Of a stretch of DNA of 64,000 nt, positions 47,475-57,087 are shown in pieces. Origin of the DNA: Clostridiales bacterium DTU074 (GTDB lineage Bacteria > Bacillota > Clostridia > Caldicoprobacterales > Caldicoprobacteraceae); assembly GCA_001513075.1 (NCBI GenBank), contig LFSE01000115.1, positions 5,090 through 69,089 on the forward strand, in the 5' to 3' direction. Made by a program: the position numbers and the translations under genes. Numbering within the stretch: the first letter of the stretch is position 1; each line of letters starts with the position of its first letter. Under the pieces are notes generated by a model that saw nothing but the letters and a program-made list of their open reading frames with translations, ran no database searches and was not told the DNA's origin.

Positions 47475-48350
47475 TTATTCGTCATGTATTATGATAATGG
47501 ATACCGTATCGCTACTGAAATCCGTTCCCACATCCCTTACCGTACCGAGCATTTTCAGCTCCCTGTATATCAGTTTTCTCTGCTCTTCATCGGTAAATTG
47601 CAACGTTATATCCCTTTCAGCTACATCAATTACGCTTATCCCATACTGTAATGCTTTGGTCATCAAAGTCTGAGGCGTTACACATATATCCTGAACCTCA
47701 AGTTCCACAACATCCGATTTTATAGCATCTACATCATCTTCACCAACACTTTCTTCCAAAGATATGCCGGTATCGATTTCTTTCGGCATCCCGCCTTTTT
47801 TTCCCGCATCATCACCGCTTTGAGCCAATTCCCCATGACCAGACTGATCAGACGGCTCTTCGCTCTCCAGGGGCGCTTCCTGTACATAGCCTGCTAATTC
47901 ATCCTCAGCCCCGGCACTTTCAGACGCTTCCAGCCTGCCATCCTCCATTACCATCGATTCGGTGGAATCGCTCACAGTTCTGCTGTTGATACCCACGGTG
48001 GATAAACTTTGCAAATTCAGCACACCCAACAGCCTAAGCGAAAACACAATAAGAGCAACTGCGGATGCCATTCCCATCCATTTTATCCAGTATCGGGCGC
48101 GTTTCGGTTTTTGTTGATACCGGGCCTGCCGTTCAGCTTCAAGGCGGATGTGCAGCCTTTCGGAAAAACCATCGGGTACATCCTCCTGGCCCAGGTTTCT
48201 GACCAAGGTAACCACTTCATTTATCTCTTTAAACCGGTTATAACACTCCCGGCATTCTCCCAGATGTGCCTCCATATCCCGCTTCCTGATCTCATCCAGA
48301 TTATCATCTATATAAAGGGTGATAAGCTCCCGAGCAAGTTTACAATCCAT
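47475..48350 (-). CDS. Membrane anti-sigma factor with zinc-finger (zf-HC2) domain
   Basis: The N-terminus (MDCKLARELITLYIDDNL...MEAHLGECRECYNRF) is a ZAS/zf-HC2 anti-sigma domain with the HxxxCxxC zinc site (H29, C33, C36). One membrane helix follows (residues about 90-112, WMGMASAVALIVFSLRLLGVL). The outer part has an acidic, low-complexity stretch and a compact C-terminal domain of about 80 residues. The protein should hold the ECF sigma factor inactive at the membrane until an envelope signal triggers release. It lies 4 nt after the sigma gene; the ATG has AGGAGAGGGG upstream. Confidence 0.9.
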   Translation of the reverse strand: MDCKLARELITLYIDDNLDEIRKRDMEAHLGECRECYNRFKEINEVVTLVRNLGQEDVPDGFSERLHIRLEAERQARYQQKPKRARYWIKWMGMASAVALIVFSLRLLGVLNLQSLSTVGINSRTVSDSTESMVMEDGRLEASESAGAEDELAGYVQEAPLESEEPSDQSGHGELAQSGDDAGKKGGMPKEIDTGISLEESVGEDDVDAIKSDVVELEVQDICVTPQTLMTKALQYGISVIDVAERDITLQFTDEEQRKLIYRELKMLGTVRDVGTDFSSDTVSIIIIHDE

Positions 48351-48354
48351 TATC

Positions 48355-48924
48355 TCACCCCTCTCCTAACGTCCTCTTAAGGGCATCGCTGAGTGCAGCC
48401 CTGGCACGGCTGATATGTGACTTCACAGTACCAAGGGGTAGCTGCAGAATTTCGGCTATTTCCTCATAGCTGTAGTTCTGTATATCCCTGAGGATGATAA
48501 CGGTTTTATATTTTGGTTTTAAACTTGCAATACATGCCTGGATCTTTTTATACCGTTCCTTTTGTATCACCTCATCCTCCGGTAACGGATTCCCGGAAAC
48601 AAGCTGCATGGTTCCGACATTTTCATCATTGCCTGAATCCAATGAAAAAAATTGAATTTTTTTCTTTCTTCTGTGTTTGTCAACACATGTATTATATGCA
48701 ATACGATATATCCATGTGGAAAATTTGCTGTCTCCTTTAAAGCCATCCAAATTCCTGTATACCTTTATAAAAACTTCCTGGGCTAAATCTTCAGCATCTT
48801 CCCGATTATTTGTCATTCTATAGCAAAAATTATATATTTTTTTCTCGTAAAGGGAGATCAATTCCTCAAAGGCGGAAATGTTTCCGGCCTTGGCCCATTC
48901 TATAAGCAAGGCCTCCTGGTTCAC
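48355..48924 (-). CDS. ECF-type RNA polymerase sigma factor (SigW-like)
   Basis: The 189-aa product has region 2 (SAFEELISLYEKKIYNFCYRMTNNREDAEDLAQEVFIKVYRNL, with STWIYRIAYNTCVD) and region 4 (LKPKYKTVIILRDIQNYSYEEIAEILQLPLGTVKSHISRAR), the two domains of ECF sigma factors. It is controlled by the anti-sigma protein encoded 4 nt downstream. The GTG start has GGGAGGGAG upstream. Its promoter may be self-regulated: GAAAC-type elements occur at about 49019-49023, but I could not align a matching -10 with confidence. Confidence 0.94.
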   Translation of the reverse strand: MNQEALLIEWAKAGNISAFEELISLYEKKIYNFCYRMTNNREDAEDLAQEVFIKVYRNLDGFKGDSKFSTWIYRIAYNTCVDKHRRKKKIQFFSLDSGNDENVGTMQLVSGNPLPEDEVIQKERYKKIQACIASLKPKYKTVIILRDIQNYSYEEIAEILQLPLGTVKSHISRARAALSDALKRTLGEG

Positions 48925-49159: not shown

Positions 49160-51724
49160 TCATCCCACTATTTTGAAAGTAGAACCAGCGGGGGTCTTAA
49201 CCACTTCGATCTGTACCGGGAAAGAATCCTTCAATTCCTGAACATGGGTGATTACGAGTATTTTGTCAAACTCATCCCTGATGGCATTTATAACCTCAAC
49301 CAACCTCTCCCGGCCCTGTTCGTCCAACACACCAAAACCTTCGTCCAATATCAGCATGCGCATATTTGCCCCTGCCCGGTTGGCCAATATCTTGGCCAGG
49401 GCAATGCGAATGGCAAAATTTATGCGAAATTCCTCTCCGCCAGAATAGGTCTCATATTTTCTTGTATCCATTCCATCCGATATTTTTATATCCAGTGTTT
49501 CTACTACACTGCCGGCTTTTGTATCCCTTTGCGTAAGAAACTCGACGGCCAAACGCCCATCGGTAATTTTGGCCAAAATCCGATTTGCCTCATCCTGAAG
49601 CTCGGGGATGGCGTTTTCTATAATCGCAGCCTGAATTCCCCGTTTTCCGTATATCAATGCCAAGGTATTATAAATCTCCAGCTTTTTTTGTAATTCTCCA
49701 AGTTCAGCTCTCTTTTTCTCCAACAGCGTTTCGGCCTCCCGAATTTTTTCCATACGCTCCCCGAGAGCTCCTCTTTCGGCTTCCTTTCTTCGTATCTCCC
49801 GTTGAACATCCTGAATGATCCCTTCCAGTTCCGAAATCCTTTCCAGTATATCGGGCAGGTCCTTTATAGCCTCCTGAAGATCGCATATAATACCGGCAAC
49901 ATCCTCCAAGTATTTTCTTTTCTCATCAATCATCTTGCTAAAACGCACCAGGCTCTCGGTCCCGGAAACCATTCCGGCCTTTGCCTTTTGCAAGGCTTCC
50001 CATTCATTGGGAACGCTGTTCAGCTTTACTATTCTTTCCTGTATAATTCGATGCCGTTCAGCGTCATAACCTATCTCAAGTATCCTTCCTTCCAGCCCTT
50101 CGAGTTCCTTTATCAGATCCTCAACAAAAGCTTTTTGGTTAAACAGCTGTCTCAATGGCACGAGCTGCTCATTTAATTCACCATGCTTCTGCTTGGCTTC
50201 CTGAGCTTCCTGGATCTGCCGGAAAAGCAAAGCAGCCCGCCCTTCCAGCTTCCCCCGCTCTTTAAGTCTGAACCTGATCTCCTTCTGCCGGGCTTCCATC
50301 TCCTTTTTCTGTTTATCTAGCTTGTTCAGGGCTTCCCCCGTCTCTTTGATAGCCTGCCGTACAGCCTCGCCTTGCCGGACCGCTTCATCCATCAGTTGTT
50401 TCTTATGCTGATCATCAAGGGGCTTTCCGCAGACGGGGCAGTCAGCCTGCGCCTCCTTTAGCACCTTGTATCGTTCCCCTAATTCCCTGAGATGCTGGTT
50501 CAGCGATTCCCGCCTGGCAATCAGGCCGGCTGCTTCCTGAGTAAGTTGGCCTGCCCTCTCTTCCATCCCCGTCAGGTCCTTTTCCAACATATCAAGCTCC
50601 TGAAGTTTTTTCTGACACCGCTCCCATTCCTGTTTCAGTTCCCTTTCTTTCGACATCTTTTCCTGCTGCTGTTCCATTTCTTTTTCCAGAACATTAATGC
50701 GATGTATCATATTCTGTTCCCGGATTCGCATTTCTCCTTCCAGGCGTTCCTTCTTACGCATAAGCTCGGCAACGCGCTGAAATTTATCGTTCAAAGCTTT
50801 TTCCTGCTTTTGCAGCTCCCTTAATTCAGCATAGCTATTCTCGATCTCATCTTCCCTCTCAATAATTTTCCTGTAATCTTCAAGTCGTCTCCTGATGTCA
50901 GCTTCTTCTTTTATTAGAGAATTGATCTCCTTATTACCCCTCTTTAATGCATCCTGATAATTCTCTACCCTTTCCTTTATACTTTCCTTCTCCTGTTTTC
51001 GCCGGGTAAATTCTGCCAGCTGTTCCCTGAGAGCCCTTTCCCTGTCCTGAACATCTGCAAGAGTTTTAATAACCCGTGCCATTTCTTTTTCCACATCGCC
51101 TTTTTCAGCCAGCTGGCGCTGCAGGTTCTCCATTTCCCGCTCCAGCCATTCCAACCTGAGCCGAAGTTCGTTGCGCTTATCAAGAGCTTTTCTTTCCAGC
51201 CTATCATATACAGACAGGTTCAGGATCTCGGCCAGTATCTCCTTGCGCTCGTTTGGCTTTTTCATGGCAAACAGATCAGCTTTCCCCTGGCTTAAATATC
51301 CCGTACACAGGTAGGTCTCGTAATCCAGCTTAATTACCTCCTGGATCTTTAGCTGCGTCTCGTCTATGCGATTCCCGCTGATGGGCACAAAAGCATCTCC
51401 CCGTTTTAGCATAAAATCAAGGGCAGATTGACCCCTTCTCTTATCCCGCTTGCGAATTACCTTGTATACATTGCCATCTTCCTCGAAGGTAAATGAGACT
51501 TCCATATCCTCTGCGCCCGTCCGAACCAGATCGTCTATGCCACCCCTGCCATCCATTCCCTTACATTTCCCCCATACGCACCAGGCAATGGCATCAGCCA
51601 GAGATGATTTGCCGTTTCCGTTTTCTCCGCTCAATAGCGCTATATCAAACTGTTCAAAATCCAAAATCGGAGCATTTTCGCCGTAGGATTTAAAGTTCCT
51701 CAGATATAGGGCCAGGGGTCTCAT
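49160..51724 (-). CDS. sbcC: SbcC/Rad50-family SMC-like ATPase
   Basis: The 854-aa product is the ATPase of the Mre11-Rad50-type nuclease that processes DNA ends. Walker A GENGNGKSS lies at residues 33-41. Two long coiled-coil arms flank the zinc hook CPVCGKPL near 428. The C-terminal ATPase half has the signature YSGGEEFRINFAIRIALAKI and Walker B MLILDEGFGVLDEQG. Its length is closer to archaeal Rad50 than to the longer E. coli SbcC. The ATG overlaps the sbcD stop as ATGA. It is the last gene of the nurA-HAS-herA-sbcD-sbcC operon. Confidence 0.96.
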   Translation of the reverse strand: MRPLALYLRNFKSYGENAPILDFEQFDIALLSGENGNGKSSLADAIAWCVWGKCKGMDGRGGIDDLVRTGAEDMEVSFTFEEDGNVYKVIRKRDKRRGQSALDFMLKRGDAFVPISGNRIDETQLKIQEVIKLDYETYLCTGYLSQGKADLFAMKKPNERKEILAEILNLSVYDRLERKALDKRNELRLRLEWLEREMENLQRQLAEKGDVEKEMARVIKTLADVQDRERALREQLAEFTRRKQEKESIKERVENYQDALKRGNKEINSLIKEEADIRRRLEDYRKIIEREDEIENSYAELRELQKQEKALNDKFQRVAELMRKKERLEGEMRIREQNMIHRINVLEKEMEQQQEKMSKERELKQEWERCQKKLQELDMLEKDLTGMEERAGQLTQEAAGLIARRESLNQHLRELGERYKVLKEAQADCPVCGKPLDDQHKKQLMDEAVRQGEAVRQAIKETGEALNKLDKQKKEMEARQKEIRFRLKERGKLEGRAALLFRQIQEAQEAKQKHGELNEQLVPLRQLFNQKAFVEDLIKELEGLEGRILEIGYDAERHRIIQERIVKLNSVPNEWEALQKAKAGMVSGTESLVRFSKMIDEKRKYLEDVAGIICDLQEAIKDLPDILERISELEGIIQDVQREIRRKEAERGALGERMEKIREAETLLEKKRAELGELQKKLEIYNTLALIYGKRGIQAAIIENAIPELQDEANRILAKITDGRLAVEFLTQRDTKAGSVVETLDIKISDGMDTRKYETYSGGEEFRINFAIRIALAKILANRAGANMRMLILDEGFGVLDEQGRERLVEVINAIRDEFDKILVITHVQELKDSFPVQIEVVKTPAGSTFKIVG

Positions 51725-52944
51725 ATGGCTTCCTCCTCCTTGAGCTCCTGTATCAGCTGATCGTTGGCTTTGATAAGTTCCTCTCTTATATCCCGGTATT
51801 CTTCTTTTTTGGAAATATATTCTGAAATAGCCCGTCTAACATCCATCTTTTCGGTAATCCCCGGATGTCGCAGATGTGAAAGATCCGAAACTATATCCTT
51901 TTCAATGCCTGCAATGTAAAAAGCCCTTTCCCGAAGAAGCCTGTACAGTTCCCGCTCCCTCAGGAGGGATATATCATAGGCTTTGATTTTTACCCTGATC
52001 TTTACAATGGCATCATCCAAAATCTGTCCTTCAATGGCCTTGATTACCTCTTCAAAGGGCTCACCCTTTGTTGCATCCACATAAAAGGTTCTAAAAGGGC
52101 GGGTATCCAACTTTATAAACTCAAAGGAGGCATCACCCTTTTTCAAAAGCACCTCCACAAAGCCCTTATCCTCCCTTTCCTCATTGAAATCCACCCTGTC
52201 GAGACTGCCGCAGTAGACAACCGGCGGTTTTTCATACAGCACCTGGTGCTTGTGTATGTGCCCAAGGGCTACATAATCCAACTCCGACCTGGCAAAAAAG
52301 CCCACGGGAAGCGTCACTTCCCGGCCAAGCATAATGGCCTTTTCCGAACCAGGAACCGCGCCGATAAGGGAGAAATGGGACATCAATACCGTCGGCAGGC
52401 CAGCATCCAATCTTTGCATCAGCATATCCAGCATCTGTCCCAGCCGTTCACGGATCGAAACCGATATATCCTGGATGCTGTTCCCTTCTATCGCCAGATT
52501 GCTGGGAGAAACGTAGGGCAATGCAACTATCTGAAAGGGGCCACGCCGGGTTTCGAGCACATCCACTTCAGGCCTTCTTCGTACATACACCCCGGGCAGT
52601 TTAACCACATCGTATATCTCCACCGACGTGGCCTTTCCCACGGTATTATGCAGATCGTGGTTACCAACGATGATATATACCTTTATTCCTTCATCCGACA
52701 AACGCTTGATCCTTTTGGCAAATTCCCGCTGCTGGGTAACATCGGGTTCCCTGTTCCTAAACACATCCCCGCATATCAATACCCCGTCCATCTGGTTATC
52801 CACAGCATAATCCACCAGCTTATCCAGGGTGGACAAAAAATCCGTAAGGCGGGTATGCATACCTGTCAAGCCATCCATTCTGCCATAATTTTGCACACCT
52901 ATATGGAGATCTCCCGTATGAATCAAGCGGATAGGTTCAATCAT
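51721..52944 (-). CDS. sbcD: SbcD/Mre11-family DNA nuclease
   Basis: The 407-aa calcineurin-like metallophosphoesterase has Mre11 motifs: IHTGDLHIGVQ (motif I), ICGDVFRNREP (II), VGNHDLHN (III), MSHFSLIGA and ALGHIHKHQVLY (IV/V). All metal-binding Asp, His and Asn positions are present. With SbcC it forms a nuclease acting at double-strand ends. The C-terminal helices (ERELYRLLRERAFY...IREELIKANDQLIQEL) would bind the SbcC coiled coil. The start overlaps the herA stop by 4 nt (ATGA). Confidence 0.96.
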   Translation of the reverse strand: MIEPIRLIHTGDLHIGVQNYGRMDGLTGMHTRLTDFLSTLDKLVDYAVDNQMDGVLICGDVFRNREPDVTQQREFAKRIKRLSDEGIKVYIIVGNHDLHNTVGKATSVEIYDVVKLPGVYVRRRPEVDVLETRRGPFQIVALPYVSPSNLAIEGNSIQDISVSIRERLGQMLDMLMQRLDAGLPTVLMSHFSLIGAVPGSEKAIMLGREVTLPVGFFARSELDYVALGHIHKHQVLYEKPPVVYCGSLDRVDFNEEREDKGFVEVLLKKGDASFEFIKLDTRPFRTFYVDATKGEPFEEVIKAIEGQILDDAIVKIRVKIKAYDISLLRERELYRLLRERAFYIAGIEKDIVSDLSHLRHPGITEKMDVRRAISEYISKKEEYRDIREELIKANDQLIQELKEEEAI

Positions 52945-54611
52945 TCACCGTACAACTCCTTCATAAGATCTTCAAACTCTTTGCCGGGAGGCAATTCTTC
53001 TTCCTGATCCACCTTTGGCAAAGGGGAAACTCCGGTCAACCGCCCGGCGGTATGGCTTACCCAATTTTTGTTATCGTCGTCACGGGTTATATCCCTGTAA
53101 AAGGTTTCATCATACGTGCGGGTTTTGATAACCACTGGCATGGGCACCGCATGCCCCATTATTATGGCCTGCTGTTTGGTATCCAGGCTGGCCAGAACAT
53201 TGCGCAGCATCCTGGCGTTGTTGACACCGCTTAAAACCGATTCGATATCCCTTTCCTCGGTCAGCAAAGCCACAATTTTGGTGCCCAATTGAGAATGAAC
53301 CTCCGGATCTATCCCTGAAGGCCTCTGATCTACCACAAGCAGCGTTACATTGTATTTCCTCATCTCCCTGGCTATCATCCCGAATATGGTTTGCCGAGAC
53401 ATATCGGGACTTAAGAACTTGTGGGCTTCTTCTATCACTATAACCAGGGGGGTGTTGTTTTCCCTCATGCCTCCCAACGCCTTTTCAGTCCGTTTAACGT
53501 ACAACTCATGAATGCGCCGGGTCAGTATATTGGCCACCAGCATATAGGCCAGCATGCTCCTCTGGTGTCCAAACTCCAATACCACATTCATCCCGTTGTC
53601 CAAGTACTGCATAATGCGTTCAACGGCGTCGTCGGCGGGATTTTCTTTTATAAAGGGCAACTTCTGAAGCTTGAACAGCTTTCGCTGCAGAGCCTGAATA
53701 GCTCCTTCATGGGAGCCGGTGGCCTCCGCAAAATCCTTAATGGAAAAGGCGTCCATATTCAAAAAAGTGCACAGCCAATCCTGTCCCAGATGTTTCTGAA
53801 GCACATATATAACTTCCAGAGCGGTGGGATTTAGATTTAACTCTTCCCACACCATAGCAATGTCTTCGGCTTCAATGGAGCGATAGGGGATCTCAACCAC
53901 AAAATCAGGATACACCCCCCGGTTTCTTGATGACTCGGGATCCAAAGTAAAAATGGCCACCTTTGAGCCGAAGAGCTGTTTTAATCCCTTGGCTTTCTTG
54001 CGGGTTTCATCCTCATCTTCTCCTTCCCAGCCGTACTCGGAATGCATATCAAAGACCAGGATGTTGCAAAGCCCGCTTTTTATCATGCCACACAGCATCA
54101 AGCGTGTATAAAAGGTCTTTCCCGTACCTGATTTCCCAAATATGCCATTTGATCTCTCAATAAATTTTTTAAGATCTATACACACGGGTATGTGATCCAT
54201 ATCCAGAGGCGAACCAACATGAAAATGAGTTGGGTCCGGTCTTCCGAAGATCTTAAATACGTCCTCCTCCCTGGCCTCCCGCACCACCGAAAGATACGAC
54301 GGTATGCTCTTTACCGGCTGTATTCTTCCCTCCTCACGGTTTATGGCAATCATGGGCTGGATCTTCACTTTGTCTATGATGCCGGTACCTCGTACTATTT
54401 CGTTTAACAGGGGATTATCCGACAGGTTTTCATAAAAAGCTCTTGGGTTGGCAGCTTCAATATCCTCATCCACCACCATGGAGAAAAAATCATGGCTTCT
54501 GCCTTCCACAACACAGAAGGTCCCCACCTTTATCTCTTCAATATTCTCACCGATATCTAGTCTGACCTCCAACCCACCTGACAGGGAGCCTCTTAAAATA
54601 GTTCCCTTCAT
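52941..54611 (-). CDS. herA: HerA-type hexameric DNA translocase
   Basis: HerA is a FtsK/VirB4-like ATPase that pumps DNA to the NurA nuclease during end resection in archaea. The 556-aa product has an N-terminal HAS-barrel (residues about 1-60, GTFCVVEGRSHDFFSMVVD), Walker A GKSGTGKT at 159-166, Walker B LVIVIEEAHKFL, and the HerA motif LVVDQRPSGIDPEVHSQLGTK. It overlaps the HAS-barrel gene upstream and sbcD downstream by 4 nt each. Presence of HerA with NurA, Mre11 and Rad50 in one operon is the archaeal arrangement, found sporadically in bacteria. Confidence 0.93.
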   Translation of the reverse strand: MKGTILRGSLSGGLEVRLDIGENIEEIKVGTFCVVEGRSHDFFSMVVDEDIEAANPRAFYENLSDNPLLNEIVRGTGIIDKVKIQPMIAINREEGRIQPVKSIPSYLSVVREAREEDVFKIFGRPDPTHFHVGSPLDMDHIPVCIDLKKFIERSNGIFGKSGTGKTFYTRLMLCGMIKSGLCNILVFDMHSEYGWEGEDEDETRKKAKGLKQLFGSKVAIFTLDPESSRNRGVYPDFVVEIPYRSIEAEDIAMVWEELNLNPTALEVIYVLQKHLGQDWLCTFLNMDAFSIKDFAEATGSHEGAIQALQRKLFKLQKLPFIKENPADDAVERIMQYLDNGMNVVLEFGHQRSMLAYMLVANILTRRIHELYVKRTEKALGGMRENNTPLVIVIEEAHKFLSPDMSRQTIFGMIAREMRKYNVTLLVVDQRPSGIDPEVHSQLGTKIVALLTEERDIESVLSGVNNARMLRNVLASLDTKQQAIIMGHAVPMPVVIKTRTYDETFYRDITRDDDNKNWVSHTAGRLTGVSPLPKVDQEEELPPGKEFEDLMKELYGE

Positions 54612-55180
54612 ACGATATCCACCCTTTCGAATACGGATTTAAGCCTCTGAGTGTCGTAATTCATTATTCTGAGCAGTTCCCTGCCAACTTTTATGACATA
54701 TGCTCTCGGATCGGTTTGAAGCCGGGCAGTTGTCCTTATAACCGCTGCCGTTAACTCTTCTCCATTACCCGAAGGGTCGTTGAGAGTTTTATCCAGATAA
54801 TTTAGGTACTGGGATATGGTCAACACCTCAAGATCATCGGCTTCCTCCACCGGCAGATGGAGCCCCGGGTGGGAAGGGGGATAATAGGGATGATATCGGC
54901 CCGCCTCTTCATAACCCACGACCACACATGAAAATTCAGTGCGAAGCAGCTCGAATATCTGGGGCTGCTCCATTTTAAGCTCCTCCAGTGATTTGAAAAA
55001 CGCCTTGGCCTTGCTTACACCATCCATACTCCCGGTATACGCTCCAGACACAATACCGTATATCAATATATTCCCATCTCGAACCTTAACAAATGAACCG
55101 TATGCGGGAACCTGATCATACCTCCTGGCCTCAGCTGTAAATTCCGCCGTTGTGCTCTCAATAACCTCACCTATAGCCAT
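54608..55180 (-). CDS. HAS-barrel-like protein linked to HerA
   Basis: The 190-aa soluble protein has a beta-rich N-terminus (AIGEVIESTTAEFTAEAR, PAYGSFVKVRDGNILIYGIVSG) resembling the HAS-barrel of HerA and ATP synthase subunits. A helical remainder includes LEVLTISQYLNYLDKTLND. It likely belongs to the HerA complex, as an adaptor or loading factor, by operon context only. The second of two tandem ATGs is chosen (AAAGGGG 6 nt upstream). It overlaps herA by 4 nt and follows nurA by 16 nt. Confidence 0.6.
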   Translation of the reverse strand: MAIGEVIESTTAEFTAEARRYDQVPAYGSFVKVRDGNILIYGIVSGAYTGSMDGVSKAKAFFKSLEELKMEQPQIFELLRTEFSCVVVGYEEAGRYHPYYPPSHPGLHLPVEEADDLEVLTISQYLNYLDKTLNDPSGNGEELTAAVIRTTARLQTDPRAYVIKVGRELLRIMNYDTQRLKSVFERVDIV

Positions 55181-55196
55181 CATATTCCCCTTTCCG

Positions 55197-56381
55197 TCAG
55201 AAGATTCTTGTTCGCTTGCGAAGCTCCTTGCTGGTCACTCGACAGGGAAGCCCATGTCTTATGAATTGCCCTTCCACCAATCGGAAAAAAGCCTCTCGCT
55301 CTTCTCCCCTAACCACGGCAAAATGATGGGCTTCCTGAAGGGCCACCGGATATCCCATTCCCTTCTGTGCCTGATTATAAACCACCCAATGCAGCCTATC
55401 CAGCAGCTCCCTGTTTTCCAGCACATAGTCGGGCGCTTCCACCCTGGCTATTTCACTGCCCACATTTATATAAAAGAAGCCTATGCGATAGGGCGGCCAT
55501 TCATGCTTTGGAAGAATATTTATGCCCCCGTAAAAACACACCGATCTCTCACCGGGGTTAAGAATATCCTTAAACAGAGCGGTATCCCTCAGCCCTTCCA
55601 TTTCCCGACAAGGGGCTTTCGGTTCATTGCGGTATTCACAGCTCACGCAGTTCATGACCGGTTGGGTACAGTCGCCCGCCCGCAGGGTATTGATGACCAG
55701 CGCGGTCCGGGAACCGGATATGTACCCCGCCACCGGAATTCCCAGCCTTTCACCTGTTTCAAAAACATCTACATAGTTGGGAGCGGTAAAACCGCCTATA
55801 TCTTTCTTGGCAGAGCCCGCCCTGTCCCACGACGCAAGGGTGCCGTCCAAAAGAGCCACAGCCGGGCTCCCGTCCCTGCAGTGATTTATAAGCAGCTCAT
55901 TAAGCTGCCTGGCTTCCATCCTGGAACGCTTCTCGGCCAAATCTTCCCCTTGCACGAGAAAATTCTCACCATTCCCCTGCACGTACAGATCCTCATCCTT
56001 ATAAAAAAGAAAGGGTAAACTGTCCATCAACGGAGGCTCGCCGGTACCATAGTGCAAAACTACCCTGCCTATATTGATCACGTAACACAGCACAATTTCA
56101 TGGGTATCAACGTCAATCTGAGAACCGTCCACGGCCATAACGGTGTGGGAAGCAAAACTTCCGGGAAGTGGGAAAGCATCATCTATCCTGCCCTGAGGAA
56201 AAGCCACAAAAAAATGACGGCTATCTGAATTGATTTTTTCCATAAAGCGGCTGAAATTTTTCCGATACTCATCCAAAGCCTTTAATGCTGCGGCCTCTTT
56301 TTGATTATAACTCTGAATATCCTGTTTACGCTGAAGCGCCATATCAGCCAGTTGAATGCCTAATTTTCCTAAGTCCAGCAT
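55197..56381 (-). CDS. nurA: NurA-domain nuclease with four-cysteine cluster
   Basis: NurA is an RNase H-like 5'-3' nuclease that works with HerA. The 394-aa product has the metal-site aspartates in VMAVDGSQID (D85) and ALLDGTLA (D179), and a C-terminal IGFFYINVGSEIARVEAP...YPVALQEAHHFAVV typical of the domain. Residues 238-258 hold C-x6-C-x2-C-x9-C (C238, C245, C248, C258), not part of the usual NurA core. The start MLDLGKLG at 56381 has AGGGGAG about 7 nt upstream. It is the first gene of the resection operon. Confidence 0.85.
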   Translation of the reverse strand: MLDLGKLGIQLADMALQRKQDIQSYNQKEAAALKALDEYRKNFSRFMEKINSDSRHFFVAFPQGRIDDAFPLPGSFASHTVMAVDGSQIDVDTHEIVLCYVINIGRVVLHYGTGEPPLMDSLPFLFYKDEDLYVQGNGENFLVQGEDLAEKRSRMEARQLNELLINHCRDGSPAVALLDGTLASWDRAGSAKKDIGGFTAPNYVDVFETGERLGIPVAGYISGSRTALVINTLRAGDCTQPVMNCVSCEYRNEPKAPCREMEGLRDTALFKDILNPGERSVCFYGGINILPKHEWPPYRIGFFYINVGSEIARVEAPDYVLENRELLDRLHWVVYNQAQKGMGYPVALQEAHHFAVVRGEEREAFFRLVEGQFIRHGLPCRVTSKELRKRTRIF

Positions 56382-56484: not shown

Positions 56485-57087
56485 TCATTGAAAAGTTTCA
56501 ACCTTCATTATTAGATGGTCAGCCCGCTTCAAGAGCTGCTGTTTTTCCAATGATCTCGCTATTATCCGTTTTGCCCGGTATATTCTGGATTTTACAGTGC
56601 CTATCTTTATATTGAGCAGCCTGGCTATATCTTCATAACTAAAATTATGATAATATCGCAGTATGATAACCTGTTGGTAGCATTTATCAAGTTCTCTACT
56701 GATAATATTTATAATTATTCTCCTGATTTCTCTCTCTTCCAACACATCAAGCAGATCTTTATCCCATATCTCTTTATGAAAACAACTGAAATCATTGATC
56801 GATAAGAGCTTATTCTGTTTTTTTAGCTGGGCGAAGGCACAATTTTTCACAATGGCTATCATCCATTGAACAATTCTATCCAAATGTTTTAGCTGATCCA
56901 TTTTATTGTAAACCCTAATAAAAGCTTCATGAACAGCATCTTCAGCAAGGACCTTGTTTCGTAATATACAGTAGGCACAGCGGTAAGCCATATCATAATA
57001 ATTTTTATATAAATTATACAACACAAGGTTTTTATCCTTTATCAATTCCTCCACCCTGCCTTCACAACTCTGATTATATTTTACCAT
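56485..57087 (-). CDS. ECF-like sigma-70 factor
   Basis: The 200-aa product shows region 2 (NKVLAEDAVHEAFIRVYNKMDQ with RIVQWMIAIVKNCAF) and region 4 (YQQVIILRYYHNFSYEDIARLLNIKIGTVKSRIYRAKR). It has no adjacent anti-sigma gene, unlike the pair at 47-49 kb. The ribosome site is weak (GGAG 13 nt upstream), so the start is uncertain. Targets are unknown; the nearby envelope genes or the resection operon are possible but unsupported. Confidence 0.88.
   Translation of the reverse strand: MVKYNQSCEGRVEELIKDKNLVLYNLYKNYYDMAYRCAYCILRNKVLAEDAVHEAFIRVYNKMDQLKHLDRIVQWMIAIVKNCAFAQLKKQNKLLSINDFSCFHKEIWDKDLLDVLEEREIRRIIINIISRELDKCYQQVIILRYYHNFSYEDIARLLNIKIGTVKSRIYRAKRIIARSLEKQQLLKRADHLIMKVETFQ

Follow-up and report, generated by a model that had tools for sequence, protein, structure and literature searches.

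The window examined here, a stretch of 64,000 nucleotides from a clostridial draft genome, carries adjacent genes for a HerA-type translocase, a NurA-type nuclease and an Mre11-Rad50 pair. The question is whether these genes form a single system for processing DNA ends, whether they came from archaea, and whether they take the place of AddAB in this organism. The window spans positions 5090-69089 of contig C29. The draft genome (2.56 Mb, 138 contigs, 96% complete) belongs to the family Caldicoprobacteraceae, class Clostridia, and to a genus other than Caldicoprobacter.

Organisation of the operon

Five uninterrupted open reading frames follow one another in the same direction on the minus strand (window positions):

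55197..56381, minus strand: nurA, RNase H-fold nuclease, 394 aa (PF09376, 109 bits)
54608..55183, minus strand: predicted stand-alone HAS-barrel protein, 191 aa (PF09378, 29.1 bits against a cut-off of 25.2)
52941..54611, minus strand: herA, ring translocase ATPase, 556 aa (PF01935, 112 bits)
51721..52944, minus strand: sbcD/mre11, metallophosphoesterase nuclease, 407 aa (TIGR00619, 139.8 bits against a cut-off of 77.7)
49160..51724, minus strand: sbcC/rad50, compact SMC-type ATPase with the zinc hook CPVC, 854 aa (SMC_N, SbcC_Walker_B and Rad50_zn_hook above cut-off)

A preliminary description of this DNA had reported one tight operon of five genes with three ATGA overlaps, and all the reading frames and the 4-nt overlaps at the HAS/herA, herA/sbcD and sbcD/sbcC junctions were recovered. 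The gap between nurA and the HAS gene is 13 nt when counted from the first ATG of the latter and 16 nt from its second ATG; because a sister species begins at the second ATG, the true start is probably at 55180, and the 16-nt gap given earlier is probably correct. The set is also as complete as had been claimed, with all five genes present and their motifs intact, and nurA, herA, mre11 and rad50 stand together as in the archaeal resection operon. The operon of Sulfolobus, Pyrococcus and Thermococcus has these same four partners, including an RNase H-fold NurA and a HerA ring ATPase with a HAS barrel, but the layout departs from the standard archaeal one: the clostridial operon has an extra stand-alone HAS protein and its Mre11-Rad50 pair after HerA. 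It differs further in its cysteine-bearing NurA and in falling in a bacterial clade apart from the archaeal sequences compared.

ECF sigma genes flank the operon on both sides (47475-48924 downstream and 56485-57087 upstream), and the downstream one, together with a putative anti-sigma gene, is kept beside the operon both in this family and in its sister family. No GAACNNNNGTTC site pointing to SOS-type control was found near the operon, the sole match in the window, at 31 kb, being at chance level.

The five proteins

NurA combines a clear NurA domain with four residues of catalytic type (D85, E156, D179, and H352), acidic ones among them, that were invariant in 90 of 90 aligned homologues, most of these being 34-43% identical to the query. 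Three cysteines, C238, C248, and C258, were invariant in the same 90 sequences and are thus conserved as strongly as the catalytic-type residues, while C245 was present in 83; the cysteine-bearing NurA singled out in the preliminary description is therefore real. The best solved match of the AlphaFold model (pLDDT 87) was S. solfataricus NurA (2YGK), followed by T. maritima 1ZUP, and a search of PDB sequences with the NurA profile gave no match at E 0.01. Model confidence was lower around the cysteines (block means of 69-76 for residues 241-260), which probably bind a metal, either zinc or an Fe-S cluster, holding an inserted loop.

The HerA protein has a Walker A motif (GKSGTGKT) and a Walker B motif (VIVIEEAH), and its profile can be aligned to S. 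solfataricus HerA (4D2I) across residues 23-182, showing that the N-terminal HAS region is kept together with the ATPase. It belongs to a discrete subfamily: among 398 Bacillota genomes, orthologues scored 760-917 bits and the next HerA-like protein 63 bits.

The small HAS protein was modelled (pLDDT 91) as a barrel (about residues 1-115) followed by a C-terminal helical domain (117-188). The 50 best solved matches listed for this model are all HerA-family ATPases, with T. kodakarensis and S. solfataricus HerA leading, and many HerA-family structures superpose at an rmsd of 2.3-2.8 over about 130 columns, mainly in the barrel. The protein is thus predicted to fold as the HAS barrel of HerA plus a helical domain. 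A protein of this type has no sequence match in the PDB, and sequence profiles did not link it to the HerA N-terminus, so that the link comes from the predicted fold and from Pfam. Since HerA retains its own N-terminal HAS region, the small protein is an addition and not a split-off domain. In the complexes studied, the HAS barrels of HerA dock NurA (PMC9960219).

The SbcD and SbcC proteins share with SbcCD of Firmicutes and E. coli the metallophosphoesterase and the zinc-hook SMC ATPase, but the clostridial operon SbcC is shorter (853-857 aa, and 889 aa in one genome, versus 923-1223 aa in relatives), and the clades are separate. In the SbcD tree, the operon proteins lay on one side of a branch with support of 91/96; 13 ordinary Firmicute SbcD grouped with that of E. 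coli (100/99), and two haloarchaeal Mre11 proteins also stood apart from the operon. The tree of SbcC heads resolved the operon clade (99/99), an ordinary clade including E. coli (100/99) and four archaeal Rad50 proteins (99/99). SbcD passes TIGR00619, and SbcC scored 268.8 bits on TIGR00618, below the cut-off of 478.5. Judged by tree position and family cut-offs, the operon pair forms a lineage of its own, distinct from ordinary Firmicute SbcCD; the grouping with the latter that the preliminary description had named as counter-evidence appeared in neither tree.

Distribution and inheritance

The operon and its flanks were syntenic in six relatives of the same family, in one of them (G002) only as far as the contig end; NurA seems to be missing from this genome, but the absence is only apparent, as the contig stops within herA. 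In the sister family, two genomes (G008 and G014) have the complete operon, and a third (G017) shows only sbcD and sbcC before the contig end. Two peculiarities were observed in this family: in G008 a radical-SAM-like gene separates nurA from the HAS gene (L051:7562-8491), and the nurA of G011 is broken into two frames (L057:8978-10298) with the other four genes intact, reflecting either a pseudogene or an assembly error. Synteny of the operon is also preserved between species of Thermoanaerobacterium and of a second clostridial genus (g176). A plasmid or phage origin was rejected, since plasmid and phage collections gave no phage match and no close plasmid match, and viral contigs gave none either. 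The operon is chromosomal, vertically inherited and resident in Caldicoprobacteraceae and the sister family, and is thus ordinary for its family. In line with joint inheritance, the pairwise distances of the five operon proteins correlate with an r of 0.92-0.97, a value that shared species history alone also raises.

Of the 398 Bacillota genomes, 17 proved strong carriers in a search with the NurA profile; one more match, at 18 bits, is not of this type. The five-gene order was present in 12 of the 12 other strong Bacillota carriers examined, in every Bacillota operon of this type examined that had a spanning contig, and in two Tectomicrobia loci. Chance is excluded as the source of this arrangement, because the identical order recurs in about 20 further loci with NurA identity down to about 27%. 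When 84,980 species genomes were scanned, at least 571 NurA relatives were returned, the best 80 of which came from Cyanobacteriota, Armatimonadota, Latescibacterota, Gemmatimonadota, Chloroflexota, Thermodesulfobacteriota, Tectimicrobiota, Myxococcota and others. About nine bacterial phyla have the NurA-HAS-HerA trio; its genes are adjacent in most non-cyanobacterial loci, and the cyanobacterial NurA stands alone.

The HAS protein, the strong NurA and the subfamily HerA occurred in the identical 17 of 398 Bacillota genomes. Likewise, in a set of 11 NurA-bearing genomes drawn from several phyla, including six cyanobacteria, every one had the HAS protein, and one strong HerA orthologue was found in each of 14 such genomes, the genes being scattered in cyanobacteria. 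That the three proteins occur together even where their genes are unlinked is an argument that they work as one unit.

Bacterial HerA-NurA has been described as limited to a few bacteria, such as Deinococcus-Thermus, and as probably derived from archaea (PMC9960219, PMC12977600). The D. radiodurans proteins (PDB 7F6D, 7WRW; PMC9960219) are likewise a bacterial pair and form a translocation-coupled nuclease of the kind predicted for the clostridial proteins but, unlike the clostridial operon, Deinococcus-Thermus HerA-NurA has no Mre11-Rad50 partner (PMC12977600), and our subfamily profiles did not find drNurA (E 0.01) or drHerA (E 0.001) in the PDB. The clostridial operon is real, complete and conserved, and is a member of an old, broad and little-studied bacterial HerA-NurA subfamily, marked by one more subunit and by clustered cysteines in NurA. 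We found no experimental study of NurA(Cys)-HAS-HerA in the literature, and the original FtsK-HerA survey may mention the stand-alone HAS protein. The chances seem to us evenly balanced that the trio is a distinct bacterial machine with an obligate HAS subunit and a metal-cluster NurA, and the most widespread bacterial form of HerA-NurA, spanning about nine phyla.

A different HerA-NurA cluster was observed in another clostridial genome (G047, L056:13308-19358). Besides a 218-aa protein it includes two small ones, an SMC-like ATPase (482 aa) and a phosphoesterase-like protein (257 aa), and is possibly a miniature version.

Function, relation to AddAB and origin

The constant gene order, the obligate trio, the invariant catalytic-type residues, the predicted HAS fold, the correlated protein distances (r 0.92-0.97) and the synteny in three lineages make it rather likely that the products of the five genes form a single system for processing DNA ends, in which a HerA translocase-NurA nuclease acts with SbcCD. 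From the studied HerA-NurA and Mre11-Rad50 proteins, we infer complex formation, translocation and nuclease action. SbcD-SbcC would recognise and open a blocked or hairpinned double-strand end, at which a HerA hexamer would be loaded and would thread the duplex through the ring, feeding it to a NurA dimer bound at the face formed by the HAS barrels. Cutting during translocation would produce single-stranded tails of putative 3' polarity or ends that are degraded completely. The small HAS protein may sit on the HAS ring of HerA as a third core subunit, acting as a loading factor or as an adaptor that connects the ring to NurA.

Recent papers disagree on whether HerA-NurA resects breaks at all (PMC9960219, PMC12977600): the T. 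kodakarensis enzyme is reported to cut both strands, and a role in resection was argued against (PMC12977600). For the clostridial operon, as for the archaeal enzyme (PMC12977600), resection and DNA destruction may both be considered. A subfamily that spans many phyla, has tractable carriers (Synechocystis, Thermoanaerobacterium) and brings a third subunit and a cysteine cluster makes the resection question testable by gene removal.

HerA-Sir2 and HerA-DUF4297 are known systems of defence against foreign DNA, and the operon might similarly destroy foreign double-stranded DNA of phages or plasmids instead of resecting chromosomal breaks. PADLOC HerA models match the operon ATPase, and haloarchaeal relatives of the whole cluster sit on megaplasmids; the same role was proposed for the archaeal homologue, T. 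kodakarensis HerA-NurA (PMC12977600). However, NurA and the HAS protein had no PADLOC match, SbcD and SbcC matched generic models only, and neither Sir2, DUF4297 nor another known effector was found beside HerA. Moreover, in three clostridial lineages the operon lies on the chromosome, keeps its synteny and is passed on vertically; it lacks phage matches and close plasmid matches, and its HerA is better conserved than any other protein of the neighbourhood, with an identity of 92% between species of the genus and 88-89% between genera of the family, above that of its operon neighbours and unlike fast-changing defence genes. We thus regard defence as unlikely.

Less probable still is that one transcript carries two independent modules, the NurA-HAS-HerA trio and an Mre11-Rad50 pair that does not cooperate with it. 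The link to Mre11-Rad50 is not universal, because outside Clostridia and Tectomicrobia the trio was not beside SbcCD in the loci seen, and most phyla with the trio show no neighbouring SbcCD. In Bacillota and Tectomicrobia, however, the pair beside the trio always belongs to one special SbcCD lineage, and archaea couple the same partners, both of which speak against two separate modules.

The operon is not a simple substitute for AddAB. The preliminary description had presented it as a possible alternative to AddAB, which holds in so far as the family is mostly without canonical AddAB, and fails in that its relatives have a divergent AddAB-like pair and canonical AddAB is present in the draft genome itself (bin G000), on a contig of uncertain assignment. 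The search for addA and addB suggested there found both genes full-length and adjacent on this contig (C55, L062:8120-15338); the AddB shares 57-60% identity with its counterpart in another family of the order. This reflects either an exchange of AddAB in the species or the mis-binning of C55, whose GC content and tetranucleotides lie inside the genome range and fit both readings. The divergent pair of the other family members was not found in the bin, and its AddA scores about 250 bits, far below the AddAB family cut-offs. In Caldicoprobacter algeriensis, the two proteins of this pair (1213 and 1060 aa, L063:7377-14116) are encoded adjacently and have cysteine-rich nuclease-like ends. Within the order, the operon is limited to two families that, apart from G000, lack canonical AddAB. 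It is absent from 19 genomes of two families where canonical AddAB is the rule, an exclusion that amounts to one independent event or two at the most. The operon is thus a case of HerA-NurA-Mre11-Rad50 alongside an AddAB-type enzyme.

The NurA tree needed 16 label changes for 15 groups, the minimum being 14, and is therefore sorted mostly by phylum. Haloarchaeal NurA lies on a very long branch, far from the bacterial clade. Both NurA and SbcC fall in clades apart from the archaeal sequences compared, a sample of plasmid-borne haloarchaea and PDB entries too small to place the deep root. A possible gain by transfer had been suggested for the operon; its vertical inheritance, its synteny, the sorting of NurA by phylum and the lack of close plasmid or phage matches speak against a recent transfer from archaea. 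Although the composition resembles archaeal clusters, including the haloarchaeal ones, and the family mostly lacks canonical AddAB, a recently transferred archaeal operon serving as sole resection machine is highly improbable and was rejected, given the family-wide synteny, the separation of SbcC from four archaeal Rad50 proteins, the bacterial NurA clade a long branch away from haloarchaea, and the AddAB-type pair in relatives and in the bin.

The clusters on haloarchaeal megaplasmids (DL31, Halobaculum, and Natrinema; L193, L246, and L247) have all five kinds of component, but in the permuted order Mre11-Rad50-NurA-small protein-HerA and with a NurA that lacks the cysteines. Their small protein (195-233 aa, unannotated) is encoded directly before herA and overlaps it. 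Against the HAS profile, it aligned collinearly over 151 columns (p 0.0015), compared with 12 columns for a control match; with the Bacillota-only HAS alignment the p value was 0.09. These results are suggestive of homology between the haloarchaeal small protein and HAS.
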